A stretch of 20,181 nt of DNA from a virus. Below the pieces are notes generated by a model. That model saw nothing but the letters and a program-made list of their open reading frames with translations, made no database searches and was not told the origin of the DNA. Within the stretch, counting starts at the first letter, position 1. The number at the start of each line of letters is the position of its first letter. The stretch spans positions 1 through 20,181 of the IMG/VR virus record IMGVR_UViG_3300044911_002268. The stretch is one strand, 5' to 3'. Of this stretch, positions 8,313-18,921 are shown piece after piece. A program made the position numbers and the translations under genes.

Positions 8313-8666
8313 TTATTCGTCACTGTTCAGCATATCTTCCATATAACGGGAAGATGGTTTTTTCTTTTTAATTTTTTCTTTCACTACGCTCGTTGAAATT
8401 TCTTCCAGCGGCAAAGAGTCTTGAATTGTTGGTCCGATAATTTTTCTCATATTGTTAAAGGAGGTAGTTGACACTTTTGGCGGAGATTCAATATTCGAGT
8501 TACCACGTTTAACTGGCGACTGAATATTTTGCGACTCTGGTGGTGTTGGTTCTACTAATCCTCTAATGTCTTTGTAAGATTGTGTGGCGACTGGTGGGGT
8601 TGGTTTTTCAACCCCAACAACCTTTATCACCTCACCATTGACAAAGTTGAGAGCCTTGAGTCCCAT
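8313..8666 (-). CDS. Pro/Ser-rich protein with internal duplication (117 aa)
   Basis: Not recognised. A short folded-looking N-terminus (MGLKALNFVNGEVIKVVGVE) is followed by a Pro/Ser/Thr-rich, probably disordered middle and a basic, charged tail (VVKEKIKKKKPSSRYMEDML). Two diverged copies of one segment occur: residues 24-41 (PPVATQSYKDIRGLVEPT) and 62-80 (PPKVSTTSFNNMRKIIGPT). The ATG overlaps the stop of the 956-aa protein as TAATG and has TGAGG 5 nt upstream. It shares a predicted late transcript with the repeat protein and Dps-like gene, so a virion or head-associated role is possible. Confidence 0.72.
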   Translation of the reverse strand: MGLKALNFVNGEVIKVVGVEKPTPPVATQSYKDIRGLVEPTPPESQNIQSPVKRGNSNIESPPKVSTTSFNNMRKIIGPTIQDSLPLEEISTSVVKEKIKKKKPSSRYMEDMLNSDE

Positions 8667-11536
8667 TAGACCTCACTCATGAAACTCTTATGAGACTTGG
8701 CAATTTTCTTTTGAAATGCACGTTTTTCAAGCGGCTTCATTGCCATGTATTTACCAAGAACCTTTTTGGCATGTCCTGGTTCAACTGGGTGCTTTTGACC
8801 ATCCTTGAATGTTACATGGAATGGTTTTTCAGAGTCAGAAGCCTTCTTGACCTGCATCATAATGTGTTGATCTGGTTCATCTGCAACAGCCGCATAGAAT
8901 TTGGCACGTGCAACTGGATCCTTTGGTGGACGACCACGACGACCTTCTTCGACCTGCTGCACTTGTTCTTCAACATCTTTGCCTGCTGCCACTTTTGGCT
9001 TACCAAGTGTTCCTGTAAGTTTTTGGAAAGCCAATAGTCTCCCAGCCTTTCTTTTTTCGTATTTTGGGTGACCCTCTTCTGGATGTTTGTCAAATGCCTT
9101 TTTACGGTAAGCATCAAGTGTTTTTGAAGAAACTTCATCAACCTGCTCAACTTCTTCTTTGGCAAGTTTGTTTGCAGCCTTTTCAATACCAATTTGGCGC
9201 TTCTTCATTTTGTTGAGCGGCTCTGCCATTTTCTCTTTATTTGGAATTGCAGCACCTGTTTCCATACCATGAATACCGCGACTCAATGCAGCCTTTTTAA
9301 TATAACTGGCATAAGTCAATTTTTTCAGTTCATCCATTTGTTCAAGTTCTTCTTTTTTCATTTTTTCTAATTCCTTTGCTCTACGTTCTGATGCTGGCAT
9401 TTCTTGATCTTGTTTCTTCTGAAGTTCAGAAGCACGCTTATCTGATGCAGGGACTTGACCTTCTGCACCAATGTCCTTTAATCTTTGTGCGAGTGCTGGT
9501 CTTTCTTTTGCTAACTGTGCAACTGATTTCGTTGTATCAGTGTGAGCCTTGGCGCCCATTGAAGCGAGGGACATCGCGCCAACGGCAAGTGCTTTTGCAA
9601 CTTTACCTTCATCCAATACATCATCAGTGTGCTCTACGCTGTCGCCCATATAACGACCTTGACCGTAACCGTATGGGTTAGGATTTGGCTCATATGGTTT
9701 CTTTGGCTTTTTCTTATCAAGTTGTTTTCTTGCCCATCTTTGTGCTTTTTGAGTATTGGCAAGTTTTCTTATTGGGTTTTCATCGCCTTGTTTTTCTGCC
9801 TTTCTAGCAGCCATTACTGCACCAATCTTTACAGGTCTCTTTTCTTGACTGACCTTTAGATATTTTTCGTAGTCGACTTCGTCAATCTGCTCGACATCTT
9901 CGTTTGTCTTAGCGGCTTGCTTTTTTGCATATTCTGCACGAGCCTGAGCAAGAACTTTTTCGCCACGCTTACGGCTGGCATCGCTTGCTGCTTTTTCTCT
10001 GTCAAATGCGCGTTGCAATTTGACGGCTGCACTCATGCGCTTTGAGCCTTCATCAACCTGCTCGACTTCTTCTTTTGCAAGTTTATCTACGGCTTTCATT
10101 ATACCCTTATTTCTTTTGGAATATCTTTTACCGTGGAATTCCATATTCCCGACATCTTTAGTAGTTGCTGCAGTCATTAATGAAACTGCCTTTTGATCTG
10201 CAGCCGCCTTGATGTAATTGCCAAGTTTTTTCTTAGAAATTTCATCAATCTGCTCGACTTCTTCGTTTTTCATCTTACGATTTTTTAGTTCATCTTTAAT
10301 GTGCTTAATCATAGGATGGTCACCACCGCCAGAATATCCCATGTTATATTTGTGTAGATACTTTAGATGAGCAGTTGGTGCAATTTTAATGCGCTTCATC
10401 TTAGTTTCGTGGTCGGCGTCTGATTCTAGCATATCGCCGAGCTTCTCAGCTCCGTGGCTCTCATCCACCTGCTCGACTTCTTCAAATTGAGTTTTGTTGT
10501 AGGTTTTGGCAAATTTCAAAAAATCTTTTTTGACGTACTCGCTATCATTTTCTCTTCCAGCAAGGTGGCGACCATGAGTCGAATCAAGGTAGTGTTTAGC
10601 CATTGGAGAAGTTGTGCCAGTCAATGAACGGACACGTGAGTGCATTTGGGCGTACTTTTTATCAGCAACTTCTGATTCGTGTTCGCCGTGATAGCCGCGA
10701 CCTTCATTTCCAGTTTTTACTGCCTCGTCAATTTCGACTTCTTCTTTCTTCATAGCAGCCAGTGTTCCAGCCTGTGGCGCTTTCTTCAGTTGAGCCTTTG
10801 ATTGAACATCAACTTTCTTTTGAACTTCTTTTTGGCGGGCAGCACGCATTGCTGATGTGATAGCAGCACGACGTTTCTTCAAATAACCATCTGTTGAATT
10901 AACTTTCCCATCATTATTGACATCTTTATCTTCTTTGCCAACTGGATCAAGTTTCTCTGTTACTGTCGCCATTTCTGTTTCCTCTGGATTGAATTCGTCA
11001 TCGATGATTTTTACTTTACGTTCTGCTTTTGCTGCACGTGTGATAAATTGTTTTGTGTTATCAACATCAAAATCACGTGGCTCCTGTGAATACTCTGTTG
11101 GTTTGCTTGTAAATGGATTGCCTTCTGTTCCAGCATGTTTGGTCAGTTTTTCAATATGTGGAGTAAGGTAATTTATTTGACCTTCTAAACCAAGTTTTGT
11201 GGCCAAGTATTGTATTTTGGACAAATGATCTTGGGCGTTTTCGATATCAGTATCGCTGACTTGTTTTTTAACCATTGCACCTTTCACTAACGAAAATAAT
11301 TTATCATGGTGAATAGCCAATTGTTCAGCATCAATTGCATTTGAATTTTTTGGAATACCCTGTGAAAATAACTTTTGGGCTTCTGGAGAAATTTCAAAAT
11401 GCTTTGACTTGTACGTGCCAACAGTGACCTGATCATTTGGATCATGCTCCATTGTTTCGCGATCTTTTGATACTGATATTGCTCCCGTTTTACCTTCGAG
11501 CATATCTTTAATTTTGTTTTCTAAACTTCTATACAT
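8666..11536 (-). CDS. Large Lys/Glu-rich repeat protein, probable virion-associated (956 aa)
   Basis: A 956-aa, highly charged, mostly helical protein starting MYRSLENKIKDMLEGKTGAI. It contains about eight copies of an acidic motif of the form EEVEQ(V/I)DE (see repeat entry). Two of these are followed by a longer module with an SKKxLxxYIKKA-like helix and a KRxxGIxKAxxKLAK helix. Residues 205-216 (DVNNDGKVNSTD) form an EF-hand/dockerin-like loop, followed by a Lys/Arg-rich helix. Near the C-terminus an AT-hook-like GRRGRPPKDP appears, compatible with DNA contact. ATG 11536 is chosen: it makes a TAATG overlap with the Dps-like gene and has GAGAAAG upstream, while the upstream TTG at 11569 lies inside that gene. 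Similar repeat modules are, from memory, widespread in marine T4-like phages; an internal head or scaffold role is inference. Confidence 0.85.
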   Translation of the reverse strand: MYRSLENKIKDMLEGKTGAISVSKDRETMEHDPNDQVTVGTYKSKHFEISPEAQKLFSQGIPKNSNAIDAEQLAIHHDKLFSLVKGAMVKKQVSDTDIENAQDHLSKIQYLATKLGLEGQINYLTPHIEKLTKHAGTEGNPFTSKPTEYSQEPRDFDVDNTKQFITRAAKAERKVKIIDDEFNPEETEMATVTEKLDPVGKEDKDVNNDGKVNSTDGYLKKRRAAITSAMRAARQKEVQKKVDVQSKAQLKKAPQAGTLAAMKKEEVEIDEAVKTGNEGRGYHGEHESEVADKKYAQMHSRVRSLTGTTSPMAKHYLDSTHGRHLAGRENDSEYVKKDFLKFAKTYNKTQFEEVEQVDESHGAEKLGDMLESDADHETKMKRIKIAPTAHLKYLHKYNMGYSGGGDHPMIKHIKDELKNRKMKNEEVEQIDEISKKKLGNYIKAAADQKAVSLMTAATTKDVGNMEFHGKRYSKRNKGIMKAVDKLAKEEVEQVDEGSKRMSAAVKLQRAFDREKAASDASRKRGEKVLAQARAEYAKKQAAKTNEDVEQIDEVDYEKYLKVSQEKRPVKIGAVMAARKAEKQGDENPIRKLANTQKAQRWARKQLDKKKPKKPYEPNPNPYGYGQGRYMGDSVEHTDDVLDEGKVAKALAVGAMSLASMGAKAHTDTTKSVAQLAKERPALAQRLKDIGAEGQVPASDKRASELQKKQDQEMPASERRAKELEKMKKEELEQMDELKKLTYASYIKKAALSRGIHGMETGAAIPNKEKMAEPLNKMKKRQIGIEKAANKLAKEEVEQVDEVSSKTLDAYRKKAFDKHPEEGHPKYEKRKAGRLLAFQKLTGTLGKPKVAAGKDVEEQVQQVEEGRRGRPPKDPVARAKFYAAVADEPDQHIMMQVKKASDSEKPFHVTFKDGQKHPVEPGHAKKVLGKYMAMKPLEKRAFQKKIAKSHKSFMSEV
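8940..10750 (-). repeat. Dispersed coding repeats, EEVEQ(V/I)DE motif and linked helices
   Basis: Motif copies within the 956-aa protein lie near 10725-10750 (EEVEIDE), 10459-10485 (EEVEQVDE), 10240-10265 (EEVEQIDE), 10048-10075 (EEVEQVDE), 9876-9902 (EDVEQIDE), 9328-9355 (EELEQMDE), 9136-9162 (EEVEQVDE) and 8938-8975 (EEQVQQVEE, degenerate). A weaker ninth copy lies near 9615-9630 (VLDEGK). Two spans, about 10265 to 10050 and 9355 to 9137, carry a full unit of some 70 residues ending in KLAK immediately before the next motif. Codons differ between copies, so the repeats are old or under protein-level selection. Confidence 0.8.
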
Positions 11537-11976
11537 TACTTTCTCGCTACTGTTGAACGAAGCATCCAAGAGTGTTTTTCATGTTTGTCTAAACGATCTT
11601 CAAGAAAATTTACAATACCATTTTTACCAATACCATCAGCAAGGTCTCTGGCAACTTTTAAATTGGCCAGTATAATTTGGTTATCACCAAGCAACCGACT
11701 AACCATGTCTGCGGCTACTGGAATTGTACTCTCGTCTTTGATTGTTGTAAGTTCCAAATAACGAGAAAAAGATCCTGGGGCATAAGCATCAAGAGTTCTG
11801 ATATGTTCAGCAATGCTATCAATGGCATCATCAACTTCTTCATAAAGGTCTCCGAAAAATTTATGATACTCATAAAAATCAGAGCCTTCGACATTCCAAT
11901 GATAATATTGAGCCTTGAGGCGAAATGCAAAAGCATCTGCCAAAACTTTTTTCATTGCTTCAATCAATTGTTCCAT
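11536..11976 (-). CDS. dps: Dps-like ferritin-family protein (146 aa)
   Basis: A four-helix-bundle Dps-like protein. The ferroxidase ligands of Dps are present with exact family spacing: H26 (in YYHWNVEG), H38, D53 and E57, equivalent to E. coli H51, H63, D78 and E82; W27 matches E. coli W52. DAYAPGSFSRYLELT is the usual Dps GYAPGT-x-xEYL segment, and the C-terminus EDRLDKHEKHSWMLRS matches the last helix. Dps forms dodecamers that oxidise and store iron with H2O2 and may coat DNA. This copy, at 146 aa, lacks the Lys-rich N-terminal tail that E. coli Dps (167 aa) uses for DNA binding. GAGAG precedes the ATG. It sits between a DUF5754-like gene and the 956-aa repeat protein in a predicted late unit, so it may be made late or packaged. 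Confidence 0.92.
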   Translation of the reverse strand: MEQLIEAMKKVLADAFAFRLKAQYYHWNVEGSDFYEYHKFFGDLYEEVDDAIDSIAEHIRTLDAYAPGSFSRYLELTTIKDESTIPVAADMVSRLLGDNQIILANLKVARDLADGIGKNGIVNFLEDRLDKHEKHSWMLRSTVARK

Positions 11977-11977
11977 T

Positions 11978-12262
11978 TTAACTCTCTACCTTTGCACCTG
12001 CACGCCACTGACGGCAACTCCAATATCTAGGTGTTGTTCTATCAGTTGCTGTTGCGCACTTATGACGAGCGCGGAATGAGGCGCGACGTTTTGGATCATC
12101 ACGTTTGATTTCCATATTTGGGTCGCCAAAACGAACAGTTTTTACATTACCCGTAGATTTGTCACGAACCTTGACCATAAACTTTCTAGGACCGCCAGGA
12201 GTACGCTGGATTTTACCCAGTGTTTCTTCGCCCAAATTTAAAAATTCTTTCAACTTGATCAT
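11978..12262 (-). CDS. Small basic DUF5754-like protein (94 aa)
   Basis: After an N-terminal leader (MIKLKEFLNLGEETLGKIQR) residues ~28-90 form a conserved basic module: KFMVKVRD, VKTVRFGDPNMEIKRDDPKR, RASFRARHKC, TPRYWSCRQW. This matches the pattern I know for DUF5754 (FGDPNMxIKRDDPxRRxSFRARHxC...YWSCxxW), found in many tailed phages, with C69 and C83 as the conserved pair. The function is unknown. Family naming is from memory and was not searched. The ATG overlaps the stop of the 718-aa protein (ATGA); the stop is 1 nt from the Dps-like start. Confidence 0.8.
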   Translation of the reverse strand: MIKLKEFLNLGEETLGKIQRTPGGPRKFMVKVRDKSTGNVKTVRFGDPNMEIKRDDPKRRASFRARHKCATATDRTTPRYWSCRQWRAGAKVES

Positions 12263-14415
12263 TTGTCAACTTCCTGTTTATTGTTCATGAGGAAGTCATG
12301 AACTGAGTTGATGTAATCAGCAGCCTTTGTAATCTTGGATTGAACCCAGCCATCAAGTTGTTTATCACTTGACATTTTAGAGACCAACGATTGAGCCTTC
12401 TTAATCATAGACATTAACTCGCTCTTGGCCATTGCGCCTTCATCATCAACACCTTCCCCAATAAAATTATTGAAACGATGCTTGATTACTGATTCCATTT
12501 GCAGCAATGAACTCAACTCTTCAACGCCAGGATAGTTTACAAACCCAGCCTTGATTTCGATTCCAGCATCAGCGGCAGTGATTGTTTGACCGATGCCAGC
12601 AACCTTATCAAGCATGAATGATTCGTTCATTGTGAACTTGATTTCTTCTTTCACCAGCATTCCATCTTTGCCAACCTTGTAGCCATCTGGAATTGGTTTG
12701 CACATTTTATCTTCAAAGCAGTAGTACTGACCAGCAGCACACTCTGTTGATTTTTCTTCAGATACAGACTTCCAACCGCCACCTTTTGATTTGTACCATT
12801 TTGCAGCCCAACCATTAGCATAGGCTGATGGATAAACATCAAACTTGCTCTTTGCTAATGTTTTTGCTCTTGACCAAAGTTCTGGATTGGTTGGAACATT
12901 CTTTTCTTCAAGGTGTTCTGTTTCTTCAGTTTTTACGAAAACTGGTTTGTTACCCTTGCCCTGACGATCTGCTACAGGGTCTTCCCTTCTTTTTCTTTTA
13001 GTAGCCTTTGCTCTATCTTTTTTGTCCATTGCTCTTGCTTGGGCGAGTGGGAGGCACTTTGGTTTACCCTCCCCCTCTTCACGTGCGCAATCCCCTTTGA
13101 TCTCGCCTTTGGTGTCCATGCGGACCCATTTTTGGTCGAACCATTTACGCAAATCTTCATTTACATCGTTTTCTGAAATTTGCTTTGCTGCCCAAAGGTC
13201 GTCAATTGGGTTTGGGTATGGACGACCTGCTTCCTTCGCGCGAGCGCGAGCGCGGGAAATTTGTAATGGCGAAAGTCCTTCCTCTACCTTTTCGGATTCT
13301 TTTTCTTTCTTAAGACGTTCATTTTCTTTTTTCTTTGTATCAACGTCTTTCCAGTAGCCTTCAAACATCTCATTTGTCTTTTGGCATGGAGTGTCTTTCT
13401 TATATTTCTTCACTAACTTGTCAGTGCCCATATCACCAGCACCACCAACTTCATGAAGATCTTTATCTAATTCGTATGCCTTACCCTCGGCAATATATGA
13501 ATTGACACGATCAAATGCAAACTGTTGCTGGGTGCCACGTGTTCCATCCCAAGCAGCAACGCCACGCTTGAATACTTCTTCCAAAATTGCGAAATCAATA
13601 CCACTTTTTTCAGCCTTGCTCAACAATGCTTCATAGATTGGATTTATAGGAGCAACATCATCAAGCATCTCAAACAGGCGATTTTTAAATGGGTGTTCAT
13701 TGTCCAGTTCATTGATCATCTCTTCGATAATATTGACCAATGTTTCTGGGGTATATTCTTCAGCCATTTGCTGAATGGATGTTTGGTCTTGTTTGTTCAA
13801 CAATTCACTGAACAAATTTTGAAACTGTGAATTTAAATCTTCATGCATAGGATGATTTGTAGCAGTGTTCAATGACACTGGTTCTTTTTCTGAATGCATG
13901 CTCTTCATTTGAGAGCCTTTATAGAATGAACTCAGGCGTTCAAATTCTTTACGGCGAATTTTAGGAAGCAGACGAGCAGCAAGACGTTTAATCAGAGCAG
14001 CCTTACCCTCTAACTTCTTATCAACTTGAATCTTTTGGGAAACGCTCAGTTCGGCGTATGGTTTACCCTTGATTCCCGAAAAACGACGCTTCAAAATCTC
14101 ACGTGCAGCACGTTCGGCACGGACTTGTAATTTCTGTTTTGTTGCTGAGCGTTTTTGGGCAATTGCGCGAGCGCGTTCTAATTTTGGCTCGAGGCGCTTC
14201 ATGATACGAGCACGCTTTTGTCTTTGCATGATCGTTAGGGCTCTTTTGCCCTCTTTAATGGATTGAGGGGTTAGGTCTACAGCACCCTCTCGTTGTATGT
14301 TCGCATTACCAACTTTTTGCTGAGGATTTACATCAATTTGATCTAACGGTTTGCCAGTTTTGGATCTGCCAGTAGATTTACCAACGCTGGTTTTCTTTTC
14401 TTCTTTATGGTTCAT
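12259..14415 (-). CDS. Mosaic basic multi-domain phage protein with DUF5824/DUF5872-like segments (718 aa)
   Basis: Segments in order. Residues ~50-150 form a very basic helical domain (IMQRQKRARIMKRLEPKLER, RAEKAAREIL-type and RLLPKIRRKEFERL). Around 285-320 a DUF5824-like segment appears (KRGVAAWDGTRGTQQQFAFD, RVNSYI). Around 395-415 is an RARARAKEAGRPYPNPIDD motif. Around 424-477 is a DUF5872-like segment (KWVRMDTKGEIKGDCAREEG, KCLPLAQARAMDKKDRAKAT). Around 520-550 is KFDVYPSAYANGWAAKWYK. Around 555-590 is a Cys-rich piece (TECAAGQYYCFEDKMCKPIP). The C-terminus is helical. All these modules recur separately in environmental phages; function is unknown and family names are recalled, not searched. 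ATG 14415 with AAGGGA is preferred over GTG 14472, which would leave a leader of only about 4 nt from the late promoter. Confidence 0.82.
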   Translation of the reverse strand: MNHKEEKKTSVGKSTGRSKTGKPLDQIDVNPQQKVGNANIQREGAVDLTPQSIKEGKRALTIMQRQKRARIMKRLEPKLERARAIAQKRSATKQKLQVRAERAAREILKRRFSGIKGKPYAELSVSQKIQVDKKLEGKAALIKRLAARLLPKIRRKEFERLSSFYKGSQMKSMHSEKEPVSLNTATNHPMHEDLNSQFQNLFSELLNKQDQTSIQQMAEEYTPETLVNIIEEMINELDNEHPFKNRLFEMLDDVAPINPIYEALLSKAEKSGIDFAILEEVFKRGVAAWDGTRGTQQQFAFDRVNSYIAEGKAYELDKDLHEVGGAGDMGTDKLVKKYKKDTPCQKTNEMFEGYWKDVDTKKKENERLKKEKESEKVEEGLSPLQISRARARAKEAGRPYPNPIDDLWAAKQISENDVNEDLRKWFDQKWVRMDTKGEIKGDCAREEGEGKPKCLPLAQARAMDKKDRAKATKRKRREDPVADRQGKGNKPVFVKTEETEHLEEKNVPTNPELWSRAKTLAKSKFDVYPSAYANGWAAKWYKSKGGGWKSVSEEKSTECAAGQYYCFEDKMCKPIPDGYKVGKDGMLVKEEIKFTMNESFMLDKVAGIGQTITAADAGIEIKAGFVNYPGVEELSSLLQMESVIKHRFNNFIGEGVDDEGAMAKSELMSMIKKAQSLVSKMSSDKQLDGWVQSKITKAADYINSVHDFLMNNKQEVDK

Positions 14416-14481
14416 CAGAGTTTCCCTTGGGCTTATCTGGTACAACGAGTGGGTCTGCCGTAGCCTAACCACCTCTGTTTT

Positions 14482-14496: not shown

Positions 14497-15801
14497 TTAT
14501 CTGCTAATTTCTTCCCAATCCATAGATGCTAACACATCGACACCGTTTGAAGCACCAGCCGCTATAACAGAAAGAGATTCTGGTACTGACGTTAAACCAT
14601 TTCTCGTTAACTGGAATTTGAAAAGTGCTTCTCTCAAAATGTCAAGTGATTGTGCGGCTTGGTTAGTTACACCAATGTATCCACTAGCAAGTATGGTGTA
14701 TCCACTAATAGCAGTGCCAGCCAAATCATATTCTACTGCTGAGTCTGCTGATGCTGCGTTCCAACTTGCTCCTGTTATAGTGCCACCCCTTACAATTCGC
14801 CACTCAACTCTAGTGTTGTTGCCGATAGCCAACAAAGAAACTGCAGTCATAATGACTATAGCATCCAATTTAGTAGATCTCAGTCTAATAGAAACAACGG
14901 GGACAAAAGTTCCTGCAGTTGGCATATCTTTTGGTGTGGTCAATGGTGTGCCAACTGCGAGTTGTGCTCCTCTTAATTCATAACCACCCTCACTTATAAC
15001 AGAACTACAAATTTGTTTCATCGTACTACTAGAAGAAGTAGCAGAAGTATTTTTCATCTCTAAACGCAAAGGCAATGATGCAGTTGTTATGTAAGTTGAT
15101 GGCAAAACGTTAGCATGATGAAAAACATGGCATTGAATAAAGACACCATCAATAACAAATCCGCATCTTACTGAACCAACCCCAAGCCATTCAATATCTA
15201 TGAAAAAAATCTGTGCCTTTGAAATGTCTAGTGTTTTTCTAGAAGGACCATTGCCAAGTAAATTGTCACAATTCCAATTAGATTGCAAAACTCTGGTTTC
15301 TGACGGAATGCCAGTTACCAAAGATCTTTCAACTAGGTACAAGTTCGTTCCGTCTAACTCTAGGTAAATACCATTGTTTTGACCGAAGTAACCAGCACGT
15401 TGTCTCAAATTTGGTTTGGCTGAAGCAAAAACAAATGTGTTTAAAGTTTGCAGGGATTTGCCAGGTTGGTAAGAGAAAACTTTGTTTGTTTCTCTAACGA
15501 TTTCTGCATTTGCAGTAGTGTCTAAATTTAAATTTACCAAACCTTCATTGGGAGAAAATGCATAGGTTGCTGTGGCTGTGTTTGAAGTTTCCCATAACCC
15601 ATTGTCTTTGTATCGATGCGAAGAATCAAACAATGTCAATGGTGTAGAAACTCTTGCTCTACCAAACGCATCAACTGCTTGACCAGTAGGGTTTGACCCA
15701 TTGATTGGATTGCCGTAGATATCGGCAAGCATCATCATCTCATAGAGATGAACATTGTGTGGTTGTTTGAACTCGTAACTATCCGTGCGCCACTGTGCCA
15801 T
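14497..15801 (-). CDS. Virion structural protein (434 aa)
   Basis: The N-terminus is MAQWRTDSYEFKQPHNVHLY, followed by ADIYGNPINGSNPTGQAVDA and FGRARVSTPLTLFDSSHRYK. The middle has FSYQPGKSLQTLNTFVFAS and LRQRAGYFGQNNGIYLELDG. This pattern (AVDAFGRARVSxPxTLFDSxHRY... YQPGKSLxxxNTF) is one I associate with a structural protein found in many marine T4-like phages. The whole chain is beta-rich with Thr/Ser/Asn bias, as in fibres or capsid decorations. No catalytic motif is seen. The ATG makes a TAATG overlap with the upstream 571-aa gene and has GGGAG 8 nt upstream. Precise location in the particle is unknown. Confidence 0.85.
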   Translation of the reverse strand: MAQWRTDSYEFKQPHNVHLYEMMMLADIYGNPINGSNPTGQAVDAFGRARVSTPLTLFDSSHRYKDNGLWETSNTATATYAFSPNEGLVNLNLDTTANAEIVRETNKVFSYQPGKSLQTLNTFVFASAKPNLRQRAGYFGQNNGIYLELDGTNLYLVERSLVTGIPSETRVLQSNWNCDNLLGNGPSRKTLDISKAQIFFIDIEWLGVGSVRCGFVIDGVFIQCHVFHHANVLPSTYITTASLPLRLEMKNTSATSSSSTMKQICSSVISEGGYELRGAQLAVGTPLTTPKDMPTAGTFVPVVSIRLRSTKLDAIVIMTAVSLLAIGNNTRVEWRIVRGGTITGASWNAASADSAVEYDLAGTAISGYTILASGYIGVTNQAAQSLDILREALFKFQLTRNGLTSVPESLSVIAAGASNGVDVLASMDWEEISR

Positions 15802-17516
15802 TATTTCGCTCCCATTCCGCTTCTTACATCATTGTACAATTCTTCTTTGTGGGCGTCCGTCATCGTTGGAGGAGCCATTTTGAAAAATGCCTTCTTGTTT
15901 CCAGCGGCTGCATGTTTTCTCATCGCAGTGCCAGATGCTGCACTGAGCCCACCGCCACCTTCCTGTCTTTCTTCGCCAACTGGCTTGACTGTAATCTTTT
16001 TGAAATTATAGTAACCATGGGCTGCTTCTTTACCGTTGTAGTCCTTTAATAATTGTTGAAATGCTCCAACACGATCTGAACCAACATGGACTGTTAAGTT
16101 CTCAACTCCCCTCTTATGCAAATCAGCCGCATGGTGAAGGATGGTTGGTTTTGCTTTATCAGCCACTACAATGTTAGCCTTTGGAAATGCTCTCTTTGCG
16201 TGTTTTAACTTTTGCTGAGGTGTCAGTGGATTTTTCTTTGCGTCTTGGGTTGCAGTCAAAACGATTGTATGTCCAGCACCCTCTTTTTCAGCATCTTGTG
16301 TGACTTGGTTGAACACCTCGGCATGACCCGCATGAATTGGGTTGACTCGCCCCAGTGTCAAGTGATGACTCTTACTCTGTTTTGCAGCCTTCATCAATGC
16401 GCCTTTCGCTCTGTTTGCGGCTGTAAACTTCTTAATGTTCACGACTTTCAATCCACGAGCCACAAATCCCTCGCCTTCAGACTCTTGCGTGCCAATTTGA
16501 TGACTGTATCCGCCATGCGCTGTTTTAGCCAAACCAGATGCAAGGGCATTTGTAGCCTCTTGTACATGATGATGAATTTGTAAACTTTTATCAAATGCCT
16601 TCTTGTTTTTCTCAACATGGGCAAGTGCTGAATCTCTTTCAGCAGCCTTTTGTAACTTTGACTTTTCAGTTTTCACTGAGTCAATACGCTTTTGATGATA
16701 TTTTTCTAGGAATTTCTTATATCCATCAACACTCATTTCTTCGCCACTATCAATCAATGAGTTGGTGTATTGACGAAGGGTGGTTTCATGTCCAACCAAA
16801 TGATCCCAAGAGTGACCTGCCATTAGGTCAGCGGCTTGTTTTGTATGCTGACGTACAACAGCCCTGTCTTCAGGATTCAGAGCCTGTTGTTCGGCTCCTA
16901 CAGATGTTGACATCATATGTACATCTGGGTGACTTTTGAACTCTGAAAAGTTACTGATTGGAGTAGCCTTACGTTGCGGACCTTTCAATTCGCTATGAAT
17001 TGCCAAACTGAGTTTTGATTTCTTCAGTTTCTTTCCTTCCGCAGAATTAACAGGAACTGAGTATGTAATCGTGTTAGGGGTGTGACGGATTTTACCACCA
17101 GTGGTGACTCTTTGCTCTGGTGTGCTGAGGAATCCACCCTGCCATTCACCAGCCCTCTTTGGTAATACTTTACCAATGTGACGAAGCAAATGTTTCATTG
17201 GTTCTGCAAGGTATGGCTTATGACCATGTTGACGATCAATGTCATCTTCAGAGTAGTTGTATTGTGCCCCTGCACCTTTATACTTTACGCCAACTTTACC
17301 ATCAGCCCTGCGAACTGCTTGGAATGACATTTTGTCATCAATTTTTCTCGAAACTCGAAACTGTCCTGTTGCGACACCACGAAGGGTGTTGAGAGCATGA
17401 ATTGCAGGCTTTTGCCCATCAAATACTCTATGTGAAGGATGTTCAATATGAAGTATACCACCTTCATGCTTGACTTCTTCGGAGAGAAATTTTATAATCT
17501 TATCGAGATTGAACAT
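15801..17516 (-). CDS. Two-domain protein: ligase-like domain fused to HxGH nucleotidyltransferase (571 aa)
   Basis: Residues ~20-375 match a phage family I recall as DUF6267 and carry motifs arranged like those of covalent nucleotidyltransferases (ligase fold): RKIDDKMSF (K58-I-D-D61, where ligases have KxDG), GEWQGGFL (123-130), LAIHSEL (171-177), EGEGFVARG (347-355) and LKVVNIKKF (356-364). Residues ~383-535 are a cytidylyltransferase-like Rossmann domain: LTLGRVNP with H395-A-G-H398 (HxGH), GSDR (479-482) and SGTAMR (528-533, ISxTxxR-like). Such domains transfer NMP onto small substrates, as in NMN or phosphopantetheine adenylyltransferases; the substrate here is unknown. The ATG has AGGA 7 nt upstream, 18 nt from a late promoter start. 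It is coupled to the downstream virion gene (TAATG). The ligase-fold reading is inference. Confidence 0.82.
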   Translation of the reverse strand: MFNLDKIIKFLSEEVKHEGGILHIEHPSHRVFDGQKPAIHALNTLRGVATGQFRVSRKIDDKMSFQAVRRADGKVGVKYKGAGAQYNYSEDDIDRQHGHKPYLAEPMKHLLRHIGKVLPKRAGEWQGGFLSTPEQRVTTGGKIRHTPNTITYSVPVNSAEGKKLKKSKLSLAIHSELKGPQRKATPISNFSEFKSHPDVHMMSTSVGAEQQALNPEDRAVVRQHTKQAADLMAGHSWDHLVGHETTLRQYTNSLIDSGEEMSVDGYKKFLEKYHQKRIDSVKTEKSKLQKAAERDSALAHVEKNKKAFDKSLQIHHHVQEATNALASGLAKTAHGGYSHQIGTQESEGEGFVARGLKVVNIKKFTAANRAKGALMKAAKQSKSHHLTLGRVNPIHAGHAEVFNQVTQDAEKEGAGHTIVLTATQDAKKNPLTPQQKLKHAKRAFPKANIVVADKAKPTILHHAADLHKRGVENLTVHVGSDRVGAFQQLLKDYNGKEAAHGYYNFKKITVKPVGEERQEGGGGLSAASGTAMRKHAAAGNKKAFFKMAPPTMTDAHKEELYNDVRSGMGAK

Positions 17517-17535: not shown

Positions 17536-17555
17536 GTTGTATTTATAAATACAAC
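17536..17555. promoter_or_regulatory. Palindromic bidirectional T4-type late promoter
   Basis: GTTGTATTTATAAATACAAC is a perfect 20-bp palindrome in the 52-bp gap between divergent genes. It contains TATAAATA on the plus strand (17544-17551) and on the minus strand (17547-17540), overlapping by 4 bp. Predicted starts near 17557 (+) and 17534 (-) would give leaders of about 12 and 18 nt, each holding a good ribosome binding site (AAAAGGTGA and AGGATT). Box identity and symmetry are seen; bidirectional firing is inferred. Confidence 0.7.
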
Positions 17556-17568
17556 GAAAAGGTGACAA

Positions 17569-18921
17569 ATGGCTAGAGGTTTAACACATCCAACTGCTCA
17601 CATTGGCAAACCGCTGATTGATCTTGATACAAAACAAGAGTATGTTTACGAGGGGTTTCAGTTCTTTCAAGACTTAAAAAAACTCCCAAGCAGTTACTCA
17701 ATTTTCAAAGAAATAAACAAGTCATCAACTGTTAAGTCTGCTGCACTTTTCAAATTCAACAAGTCAAATAAAAAGTTTGGTATTCTTTACTATGCTCGCT
17801 CTGTAACTTCATCTACAAAAATAAATGCTGGCACCTTCAACATGCAGTATGCAGGTCGCAAAGGTGCAACTGAAAATTTGGGCATCACTTCAGACACGTT
17901 GATCAAAGGTGGCAGAATTCAAAAAAGAATGCTAAATGGTCTTGATGTAAATTGTGCAGTGTTTTCTAACAAAGCAGAGTTGGGCAACTCGATTTTAAAA
18001 GGTTTGAAAGGTAATAACAAAGTCAATGCGGCGGTGTATGACACCGTTCAAGACTACTTGAATAGTGACCTTACCCAATTTGGTTGGAAAAAAGGTATAC
18101 AAGAAAGTGATGTCAATGAACTTGGCAAATATCTTGGTGAGTTGGTCATTGGCGTTTGTGTTCTGGGTAAAAAGTTCAGCCCAGTTTTCAGTGAGAACAT
18201 TTTTGCTGGAAAACAAATCAAAGAGTTTATTGTCCCAGACGACCCATCATTTTCTGGGGTTGACTCAGCCTTTGTATTAAATGATGGATCATTGATTCCA
18301 ATTTCATCCAAACTTGGTGCTGGTGCAAAAGCCTCCGTGTTCACTAACCTTTTACCAAAAGTGATGACAAGTAAAAAAGGAATTGGCGACTGCGTCATCA
18401 AACAAATTGCTGACAGTGCTAAAAAGATCGGTATCACTGTCGAAGATTTAAATGCAAAACGTGGCGCAAAAGATATCGTATATGAGTATGGCGTCCGTAA
18501 AATACTGAAACTTTCACAACTTGAAGTTCCAGACCCATATCAAGTTTTCAGGGATATAAAACAAAACCCAAACAAGTTGTCCAAGCCAGCCAAGGCAGTT
18601 GTTGATGCTATTAAGAAACATCCAGACATCGAAGAAAATGTGAAAGCAAAATTGCCCTATTCAGTGACATCAGCCTTTTCAAGAGAAATAGCAAGACGCT
18701 TGAACAATGATGAGACCAGTAAAAAAATCATCACTGAAATTCTAGCGGGAAAAAACTTTTACCAAGCCAACCTTGACGTAAACAAATGGAAAAAAGGAGA
18801 AGTCTTTTTCAAACTTCTCCTTTCTGGCGATGCCAATGTGGGGTTCATTGGATCAAAAGCGGCAATTGATGACCTTGAAGCAAAACAAGGTTTGGTCAAC
18901 TATGAATTAAAGTATAGTTAG
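17569..18921 (+). CDS. Unknown 450-aa protein, possible nuclease-like core; only plus-strand gene
   Basis: Not assigned to a named family. Starts MARGLTHPTAHIGKPLIDLD with AAGGTGA 5 nt before the ATG, just downstream of the palindromic late promoter. It has no signal peptide or membrane segments, is Lys-rich and of mixed alpha/beta character. A KYLGELVIGV helix near 185-195 is followed by G-V-D232-S-A-F-V-L-N-D-G-S-L-I-P-I-S-S-K248 and LGAGAKAS. The D-x15-K arrangement with an upstream Glu helix resembles a PD-(D/E)xK nuclease core in which (D/E)xK reads SxK, and an IS(S/L)KxGxxA tail is seen in some phage restriction-like proteins. This is a weak structural hint only. The 3' end overlaps the convergent gene by 15 nt. 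Confidence 0.85.
   Translation: MARGLTHPTAHIGKPLIDLDTKQEYVYEGFQFFQDLKKLPSSYSIFKEINKSSTVKSAALFKFNKSNKKFGILYYARSVTSSTKINAGTFNMQYAGRKGATENLGITSDTLIKGGRIQKRMLNGLDVNCAVFSNKAELGNSILKGLKGNNKVNAAVYDTVQDYLNSDLTQFGWKKGIQESDVNELGKYLGELVIGVCVLGKKFSPVFSENIFAGKQIKEFIVPDDPSFSGVDSAFVLNDGSLIPISSKLGAGAKASVFTNLLPKVMTSKKGIGDCVIKQIADSAKKIGITVEDLNAKRGAKDIVYEYGVRKILKLSQLEVPDPYQVFRDIKQNPNKLSKPAKAVVDAIKKHPDIEENVKAKLPYSVTSAFSREIARRLNNDETSKKIITEILAGKNFYQANLDVNKWKKGEVFFKLLLSGDANVGFIGSKAAIDDLEAKQGLVNYELKYS

Follow-up and report, generated by a model that had tools for sequence, protein, structure and literature searches.

A predicted ligase-superfamily domain of the DUF6267 family fused to an HxGH adenylyltransferase-like domain in a viral genome fragment

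We analysed a 20-kb viral record (IMG/VR IMGVR_UViG_3300044911_002268) as a single stretch of 20,181 nucleotides, referred to here as the window, and in it an open reading frame (ORF) that joins a ligase-like domain of the Pfam family DUF6267 to an HxGH nucleotidyltransferase (NTase) domain (Table 1). The original prediction had read this ORF as the fusion of a degenerate ligase-like domain with an HxGH nucleotidyltransferase, late-expressed and lying beside virion genes. Every motif that it quoted is present at the expected residues of the minus-strand translation: KIDD at 58–61, GEWQGGFL at 123–130, EGEGFVARG at 347–355 and LKVVNIKKF at 356–364 in the first domain, and HAGH at 395–398, GSDR at 479–482 and SGTAMR at 528–533 in the second. 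A plus-strand reading of the same interval was dismissed because of its many stops. Since the fused frame is uninterrupted in six more contigs (L002–L007, 80–100% identity), it is not an assembly error. The neighbour that overlaps its stop codon does encode a virion structural protein, and the two genes probably share one transcription unit. Gene order in the window (DUF6267-NTase, virion proteins, primase, thyX and nrdA, the last two named from their translations) resembles that of T4-like cyanophages, and a DNA search of the window against isolate phages gave no near match and no close isolate relative.

Table 1 Features of the fused ORF and its flanks in the window
Feature	Coordinates	Strand	Evidence or remark
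Fused ORF, DUF6267 ligase-like plus HxGH adenylyltransferase-like	15801..17516	minus	571 amino acids; stop codon inside coordinates
Ligase-like domain, residues 20–379, Pfam DUF6267	16380..17459	minus	PF19782, E = 2.3e-37; AF2 model; fold matches
Motif I, KIDD, predicted adenylylated lysine K58	17334..17345	minus	K58 and D60 invariant; aligns with catalytic lysine of four ligase families
K80, probable motif Ia basic residue	17277..17279	minus	Invariant; aligns with ligase motif Ia region
Motif III, QGGF, G128 in place of acidic residue (QGD in other clades)	17130..17141	minus	
PNTITY, residues 147–152, probable motif IIIa	17061..17078	minus	P147 and N148 invariant
All-helical insert, residues 208–332, between motifs IIIa and IV	16521..16895	minus	DSSP of model
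Motif IV, EGFV (E349)	16461..16472	minus	E349-G350 invariant
Motif V, KVVNI (K357)	16434..16448	minus	K357 invariant; most relatives KLVDR
HxGH adenylyltransferase-like domain, residues 383–571	15804..16370	minus	PF01467 over cut-off; AF2 pLDDT 93.7; fold matches
HAGH nucleotide-binding motif, residues 395–398	16323..16334	minus	H398 invariant in 68 relatives
SGTAMR, ISxTxxR-type motif	15918..15935	minus	S528 invariant, R533 nearly so
Virion structural protein gene, overlaps stop of fused ORF	14497..15801	minus	phrog_1645, E = 1e-140
T4-type late promoter element, ATAAATA core	17540..17546	minus	30 nucleotides upstream of fused ORF start codon
Late promoter element of divergent gene 17569–18921	17545..17551	plus	

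Residues 23–368 match DUF6267 with 129.7 bits against a curated cut-off of 27, making the window protein a clear member of the family (cyanophage T4-GC 71; phrog_455). DUF6267 has no described function and is unnamed in the literature searched, and PHROGs gives no function for the first half of the fused protein. Across 108 diverse relatives, K58, D60, K80, Q126-G127, P147-N148, H174, E349-G350, K357, F364 and N368 are invariant, so the N-terminal motifs are not chance resemblances. The superfamily motifs Ia, IV (EGxV) and V (K) follow in order as K80, E349-G350-V352 and K357, and PNTITY lies about 20 residues from motif III, a spacing shared with RLIG1 that would support its assignment to motif IIIa. 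An AF2 model of residues 1–382, built on the 108 relatives, has a pLDDT of 93 and a pTM of 0.88. When this model was compared with the PDB using Foldseek, 41 of the best 50 matches (counted manually) were DNA ligases, RNA ligases or capping enzymes; the types matched were DNA ligases I and IV, archaeal ligases, Naegleria and T4 RNA ligases, TbREL1, LigA and a capping enzyme, with a DNA ligase IV complex at the top (E = 0.047, probability 0.80). In BFVD, beyond the DUF6267 and NTase proteins, the first match whose name denotes another function was an RNA ligase (E = 6e-3), and the list continued with further RNA and DNA ligases.

We also aligned the DUF6267 profile, or its core, with four sets of ligases (RNA ligases, ATP-dependent DNA ligases, LigA and LigD) using HHalign. 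Similarity was weak (p = 0.015–0.09); for comparison, LigA against LigD, known to belong to the same superfamily, gave p = 0.28–0.34 with these sets. The best alignment for all four sets placed K58 on the catalytic lysine, and for two of the four the QGD/QGG site fell on motif III. A block-shuffled DUF6267 profile (n = 40) attained the observed scores in 2, 0, 0 and 0 cases across the four sets. More diverse ligase sets were required for this result, as HHalign with narrow T4 Rnl2 or gp30 profiles alone was unsuccessful. Motif order, predicted fold and alignment together make it very probable that the N-terminal domain has the fold of the covalent nucleotidyltransferase superfamily of DNA ligases, RNA ligases and capping enzymes, with K58 as the likely motif I lysine, which bears out the original prediction on both points. 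Compact DUF6267 proteins of 270–324 amino acids from P-SSM2, S-IOM18, Syn19 and S-RIM12 (L417, L421, L422 and L423) do without most of the helical insert and keep the motifs, as expected of an enzyme core; motif III is QAD in three of them.

The window's clade departs from the rest of the family at two positions. In motif I, lysine and aspartate are invariant and the glycine of KxDG, found in all other clades, is replaced by aspartate; in motif III, the acidic residue of QGD or QAD, again present in all other clades, is replaced by glycine. Among 240 unique sequences, 177 combine KxDG with QGD and 59 combine KxDD with QGG, with no mixed form; the other four are fragments that do not include motif I. 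The KxDD/QGG sequences form one clade (support 100) at the end of a long branch, with outgroups (L241–L243) that carry KWDG/QGD. On this tree the swap arose once, and the perfect correlation between the two motifs is therefore not repeated independent evidence. In RLIG1, the motif III glutamate is part of the network that holds the ribose 2′-OH and, together with the aspartate of motif I, the glutamate of motif IV and the lysine of motif V, may bind Mg2+; the RLIG1 residues with equivalent roles are K73, R89, E174, E240 and K253 (PMC11494293). We infer that the acid may have moved out of motif III to the residue that follows KxD, D61. If so, nature would have provided a clean example of a ligase active site in which a catalytic acid has changed place. 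The description of motif I as degenerate, correct in that it reads KxDD rather than KxDG, is too simple for a change coupled to that of motif III while the rest of the active site stays invariant.

Alteration of two canonical catalytic-site residues throughout the clade, together with the long branch leading to it, is also what might be seen if the KxDD/QGG domain had become a pseudo-ligase, keeping the fold and binding nucleotide or nucleic-acid ends without AMP transfer, as a scaffold or sensor for the NTase. We consider this unlikely, given that K58, D60, K80, E349 and K357 stay invariant on both sides of the swap and that the two changes are complementary, unlike random decay. Self-adenylylation is predicted to be active in the window's clade, with fair confidence.

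Several results weigh against reading the protein as an active, ligase-like enzyme. No single PDB fold match is individually significant, none reaching E = 0.001, and TM-scores are low (0.2–0.25), which the 125-residue helical insert may partly explain. Searches of Pfam and of PDB sequences connect no ligase family with any of the 108 members: there was no match among them to the RNA ligase models PF09414 and PF09511 or to the LigA model PF01653 (a profile search only, which does not cover a functional equivalent of domain Ia), and the PDB sequence search gave clitocypin-like noise with the single protein and noise with the 108-row profile. A shallower profile of nine isolate sequences placed motif I in register for just one of the four ligase families. 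Neither the canonical glycine of motif I nor the acidic residue of motif III is present in the window's clade, and the virion proteomes that contain the NTase (S-SZBM1 and S-CREM2 tables) do not list the DUF6267 protein. The first two of these results would suit an unrelated fold in which the ligase-like motifs are coincidental. That explanation is very improbable: it would have to accommodate the concentration of top fold matches in one superfamily, the presence of all motifs in order, and the alignment of K58 with the catalytic lysine in each of four families.

On its model, the C-terminal domain is an ADENYLYLTRANSFERASE. Residues 387–472 match CTP_transf_like (PF01467) above its cut-off, and H16, P48, G97, D99, R100, G132 and S146 (domain numbering, in which H16 is H398) are invariant in 68 relatives. 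The model matches nicotinate mononucleotide or nicotinamide mononucleotide (NMN) adenylyltransferases, phosphopantetheine adenylyltransferases, FAD synthetases and TmcAL, with E-values down to 7e-5. With its HxGH motif, ISxTxxR-type motif and Rossmann fold, the domain belongs to the HxGH adenylyltransferase superfamily, and computation supports a Rossmann-type adenylyltransferase of the NMNAT/CoaD kind. Sequence profiles favour the NMNAT families, the NadR model matching 43 and the NadD-type model 50 of the 68 members; the window's own domain scores E = 0.0028–0.05, far under every NCBIfam equivalog cut-off for NMNAT (NadD, NadM or NadR). It thus shares fold and motifs with NMNAT/NadD, CoaD, FAD synthetase and TmcAL and differs from them in falling below those cut-offs and in being fused to a ligase-like domain. 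A second nucleotidyl-transfer activity, of AMP or CMP, had been proposed here; the HxGH domain stands and is adenylyltransferase-like, and CMP transfer was rejected, no cytidylyltransferase being among the 50 best fold matches. Nor does the ranking of fold matches support the PHROGs label for this half, ‘cytidyltransferase’. Many same-clade relatives have an NTase protein that extends into a P-loop kinase domain of Zeta_toxin/AAA_33 type; a NadR-type riboside kinase was considered for it and rejected, as the matches are to Zeta_toxin/AAA_33, UMP-CMP kinase and, weakly, a polynucleotide-kinase PHROG.

The fusion is real but is not the rule. DUF6267 is a known and widespread family, found in 465 sequenced phage records, almost all of them cyanophages, and in environmental viral contigs that number many hundreds. 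Relatives of the ligase-like protein are present in almost every sequenced T4-like phage that infects ocean cyanobacteria, and most of these phages have no other recognisable ligase. In most relatives DUF6267 and NTase (T4-GC 190) are separate genes that overlap by a few bases. The window shares the family's synteny, and its clade differs in being fused and in carrying KxDD/QGG rather than KxDG/QGD. Among 307 loci, on contigs that are partly redundant so that the counts are not independent, the NTase is fused in 63, no more than 50 bases away in 133 and up to 1.5 kb away in 57; where 1.5 kb of sequence was left, it is fused or within that distance in 253 of 269 loci and not there in 16. The same two-domain arrangement occurs in S-PM2d138 (591 amino acids) of the S-PM2 group, with canonical KWDG/QGD. 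Because this protein sits in a distant clade, its fusion is independent of the window's and the two domains have been joined at least twice, which argues that the two activities work together. If DUF6267 is a ligase-superfamily enzyme, the ‘cytidyltransferase’ that phages almost always encode next to it gains a context.

Other arrangements were seen in single genomes. In P-SSM2 and S-CAM7 the DUF6267 gene lies away from the NTase, and in contig L047 (4944–6134) it is split into two ORFs of 175 and 214 amino acids, probably by a frameshift. The Pseudomonas jumbo phage PA5oct (L313) has no Pfam match to DUF6267 and does have an NTase; its unannotated 446-amino-acid protein (BFVD A0A4Y5JUK8) matches the DUF6267 model by fold (probability 1.00, E = 1e-3), so the family may reach jumbo phages.

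Late expression, part of the original prediction, is supported by the ATAAATA element upstream of the fused ORF. The late promoter core is TATAAATA in T4 and NATAAATA in S-PM2 (PMC2984593). Each of the window's five ATAAATA sites (5625, 8300, 14482, 17540 on the minus strand and 17545 on the plus strand) lies within about 40 nucleotides upstream of a gene start, and these sites probably mark late transcription units; the last two lie in a palindrome shared by the fused ORF and the divergent gene. Across the family, ATAAATA occurs within 100 nucleotides upstream of 25 of 48 KxDD genes and 44 of 156 KxDG genes, compared with about 3% of random positions. Virions of S-CREM2, S-SZBM1 and S-SCSM1 have been found to contain an NTase or NMNAT-like protein (PMC10665884, PMC9146016, PMC9602691). 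A packaged DUF6267 protein was considered and rejected, since the protein given in the tables for S-SZBM1 and S-CREM2 is the NTase: in S-SZBM1 the DUF6267 protein, gp135, is encoded beside the NTase and is absent from the virion protein table found, and S-SZBM1_139 is the gene downstream of the NTase, not DUF6267.

Taken together, we estimate a probability of roughly 60% that the fused protein is a late, RNA-ligase-like self-adenylylating enzyme that works with an NAD-type adenylyltransferase, its activity and substrate being predictions. Fold, domain make-up and the absence of other ligases point to an RNA ligase, and NMNAT-like similarity suggests the link to NAD. Attack by K58 on ATP (or NAD+) would give lysyl-AMP, the nucleotide being held by K80, E349 and K357, and D61, beside motif I, would take over the ribose or metal contact that usually falls to the acidic residue of motif III. 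AMP would then pass to a 5′-phosphate, and the enzyme would seal or adenylylate a polynucleotide end; that the acceptor is a polynucleotide is slightly favoured. In the AF2 model a single helix follows motif V before the NTase, and the OB-fold domain that carries motif VI is absent. As RNA ligases also lack an OB fold and have an extra helical region, RNA would be the likeliest acceptor, although its choice over DNA is tentative. Most likely, the attached NMNAT-like domain would use ATP and a mononucleotide to make a dinucleotide, for instance NAD+.

The NMNAT-like partner could also be expected if the chemistry did not concern nucleic acids and the protein adenylylated a protein or small cofactor, or formed an NAD-salvage or anti-NADase module with the NMNAT (and, in some relatives, the kinase). 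NAD salvage by phages is an established form of counter-defence (PMC9503650), and such a module could include the P-loop kinase domain that many same-clade relatives have in their NTase protein. The nearest folds of the N-terminal domain are nevertheless polynucleotide ligases, and the kinase matches Zeta_toxin/AAA_33 and nucleotide-kinase models and, weakly, a polynucleotide-kinase PHROG rather than the NadR riboside kinase, so that we regard this explanation as unlikely.

Among known enzymes, Rnl1, Rnl2 and RLIG1, the last of ATP-grasp type, share with the window protein the motif order I-Ia-III-IIIa-IV-V, the missing OB domain and the extra helical region, which lies between motifs IIIa and IV in the window protein and at the C terminus in the RNA ligases. 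The window protein differs from them in the motif I/III swap and in giving no hidden Markov model match. ATP- and NAD+-dependent DNA ligases (DNA ligase IV, archaeal ligases and LigA) supply the top individual PDB fold matches, but they have the OB domain that the window protein lacks, and their Pfam models do not match it.

We examined which other ligases accompany DUF6267. T4 has gp30, rnlA and rnlB and no DUF6267. In 13 complete T4-like genomes with DUF6267 (Melnitz-3, ACG-2014h, S-PM2, S-SZBM1, HTVC008M, S-CRM01, P-SSM2, P-HM2, P-TIM40, S-CAM9, S-IOM18, Syn19 and S-RIM12), an ATP-dependent DNA ligase (PF01068) was matched in one, the freshwater phage S-CRM01, and in none of the other 12, and the Rnl2-type model PF09414 had no match in any of the 13. 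Neither model matched S-CAM7, in which DUF6267 is in two pieces, or the window's closest relative, the 151.7-kb contig L007; models of NAD-dependent ligase and Rnl1 were searched in the first six genomes (Melnitz-3 to S-CRM01) and were absent there. DLP_6, a soil phage, carries a DNA ligase as well as DUF6267. A review notes that g30 homologues are missing from cyanomyoviruses, raises distant homologues or the host ligase as substitutes, and favours the host ligase (PMC2984593).

DUF6267 is a candidate for such a distant g30 homologue, and if it is a ligase-superfamily enzyme this puzzle becomes directly testable. It is improbable, however, that marine T4-like phages use the ligase-like protein in place of gp30 or the host ligase to join DNA during replication. 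The scarcity of other ligases in the genomes above and the position of cyanophage DUF6267 copies next to uvsX-gp41 would suit that role, as would the possible existence of distant homologues. The protein lacks the OB domain with which DNA ligases hold DNA, and its promoter is late, which argues for RNA or for end repair and not for the joining of Okazaki fragments; S-CRM01 and DLP_6 carry a DNA ligase in addition, and the host enzyme is the substitute that the review prefers. Still less probable is a more specific version, in which DUF6267 would be the long-missing ligase of marine T4-like phages, produced late along with the virion proteins, NAD+-dependent and, in the window's clade, with a relocated acid, whose NMNAT-like partner would regenerate NAD+ from the NMN released by the ligase and so make the system self-recycling.

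Other genes of the window gave minor observations. The divergent gene at 17569–18921 (plus strand) encodes 450 amino acids with no assigned function, and its sole isolate-phage homologue found is in Caulobacter phage Cr30 (39% identity). A Dps/ferritin-like protein (PF00210, E = 6e-23) is encoded amid the late genes at 11536–11976 (minus strand). The 737-amino-acid protein at 12259–14472 (minus strand) has a DUF5824-like segment, a module also present in the C-terminal tails of relatives' NTase proteins. Finally, the 967-amino-acid protein at 8666–11569 (minus strand) has five EEVEQ[VIM]DE-type repeats and similarity to phrog_4359, and is shared with S-SZBM1 gp137, which has been detected in virions; if it is an internal protein packaged in the head, the repeats might be where the head protease cuts it.

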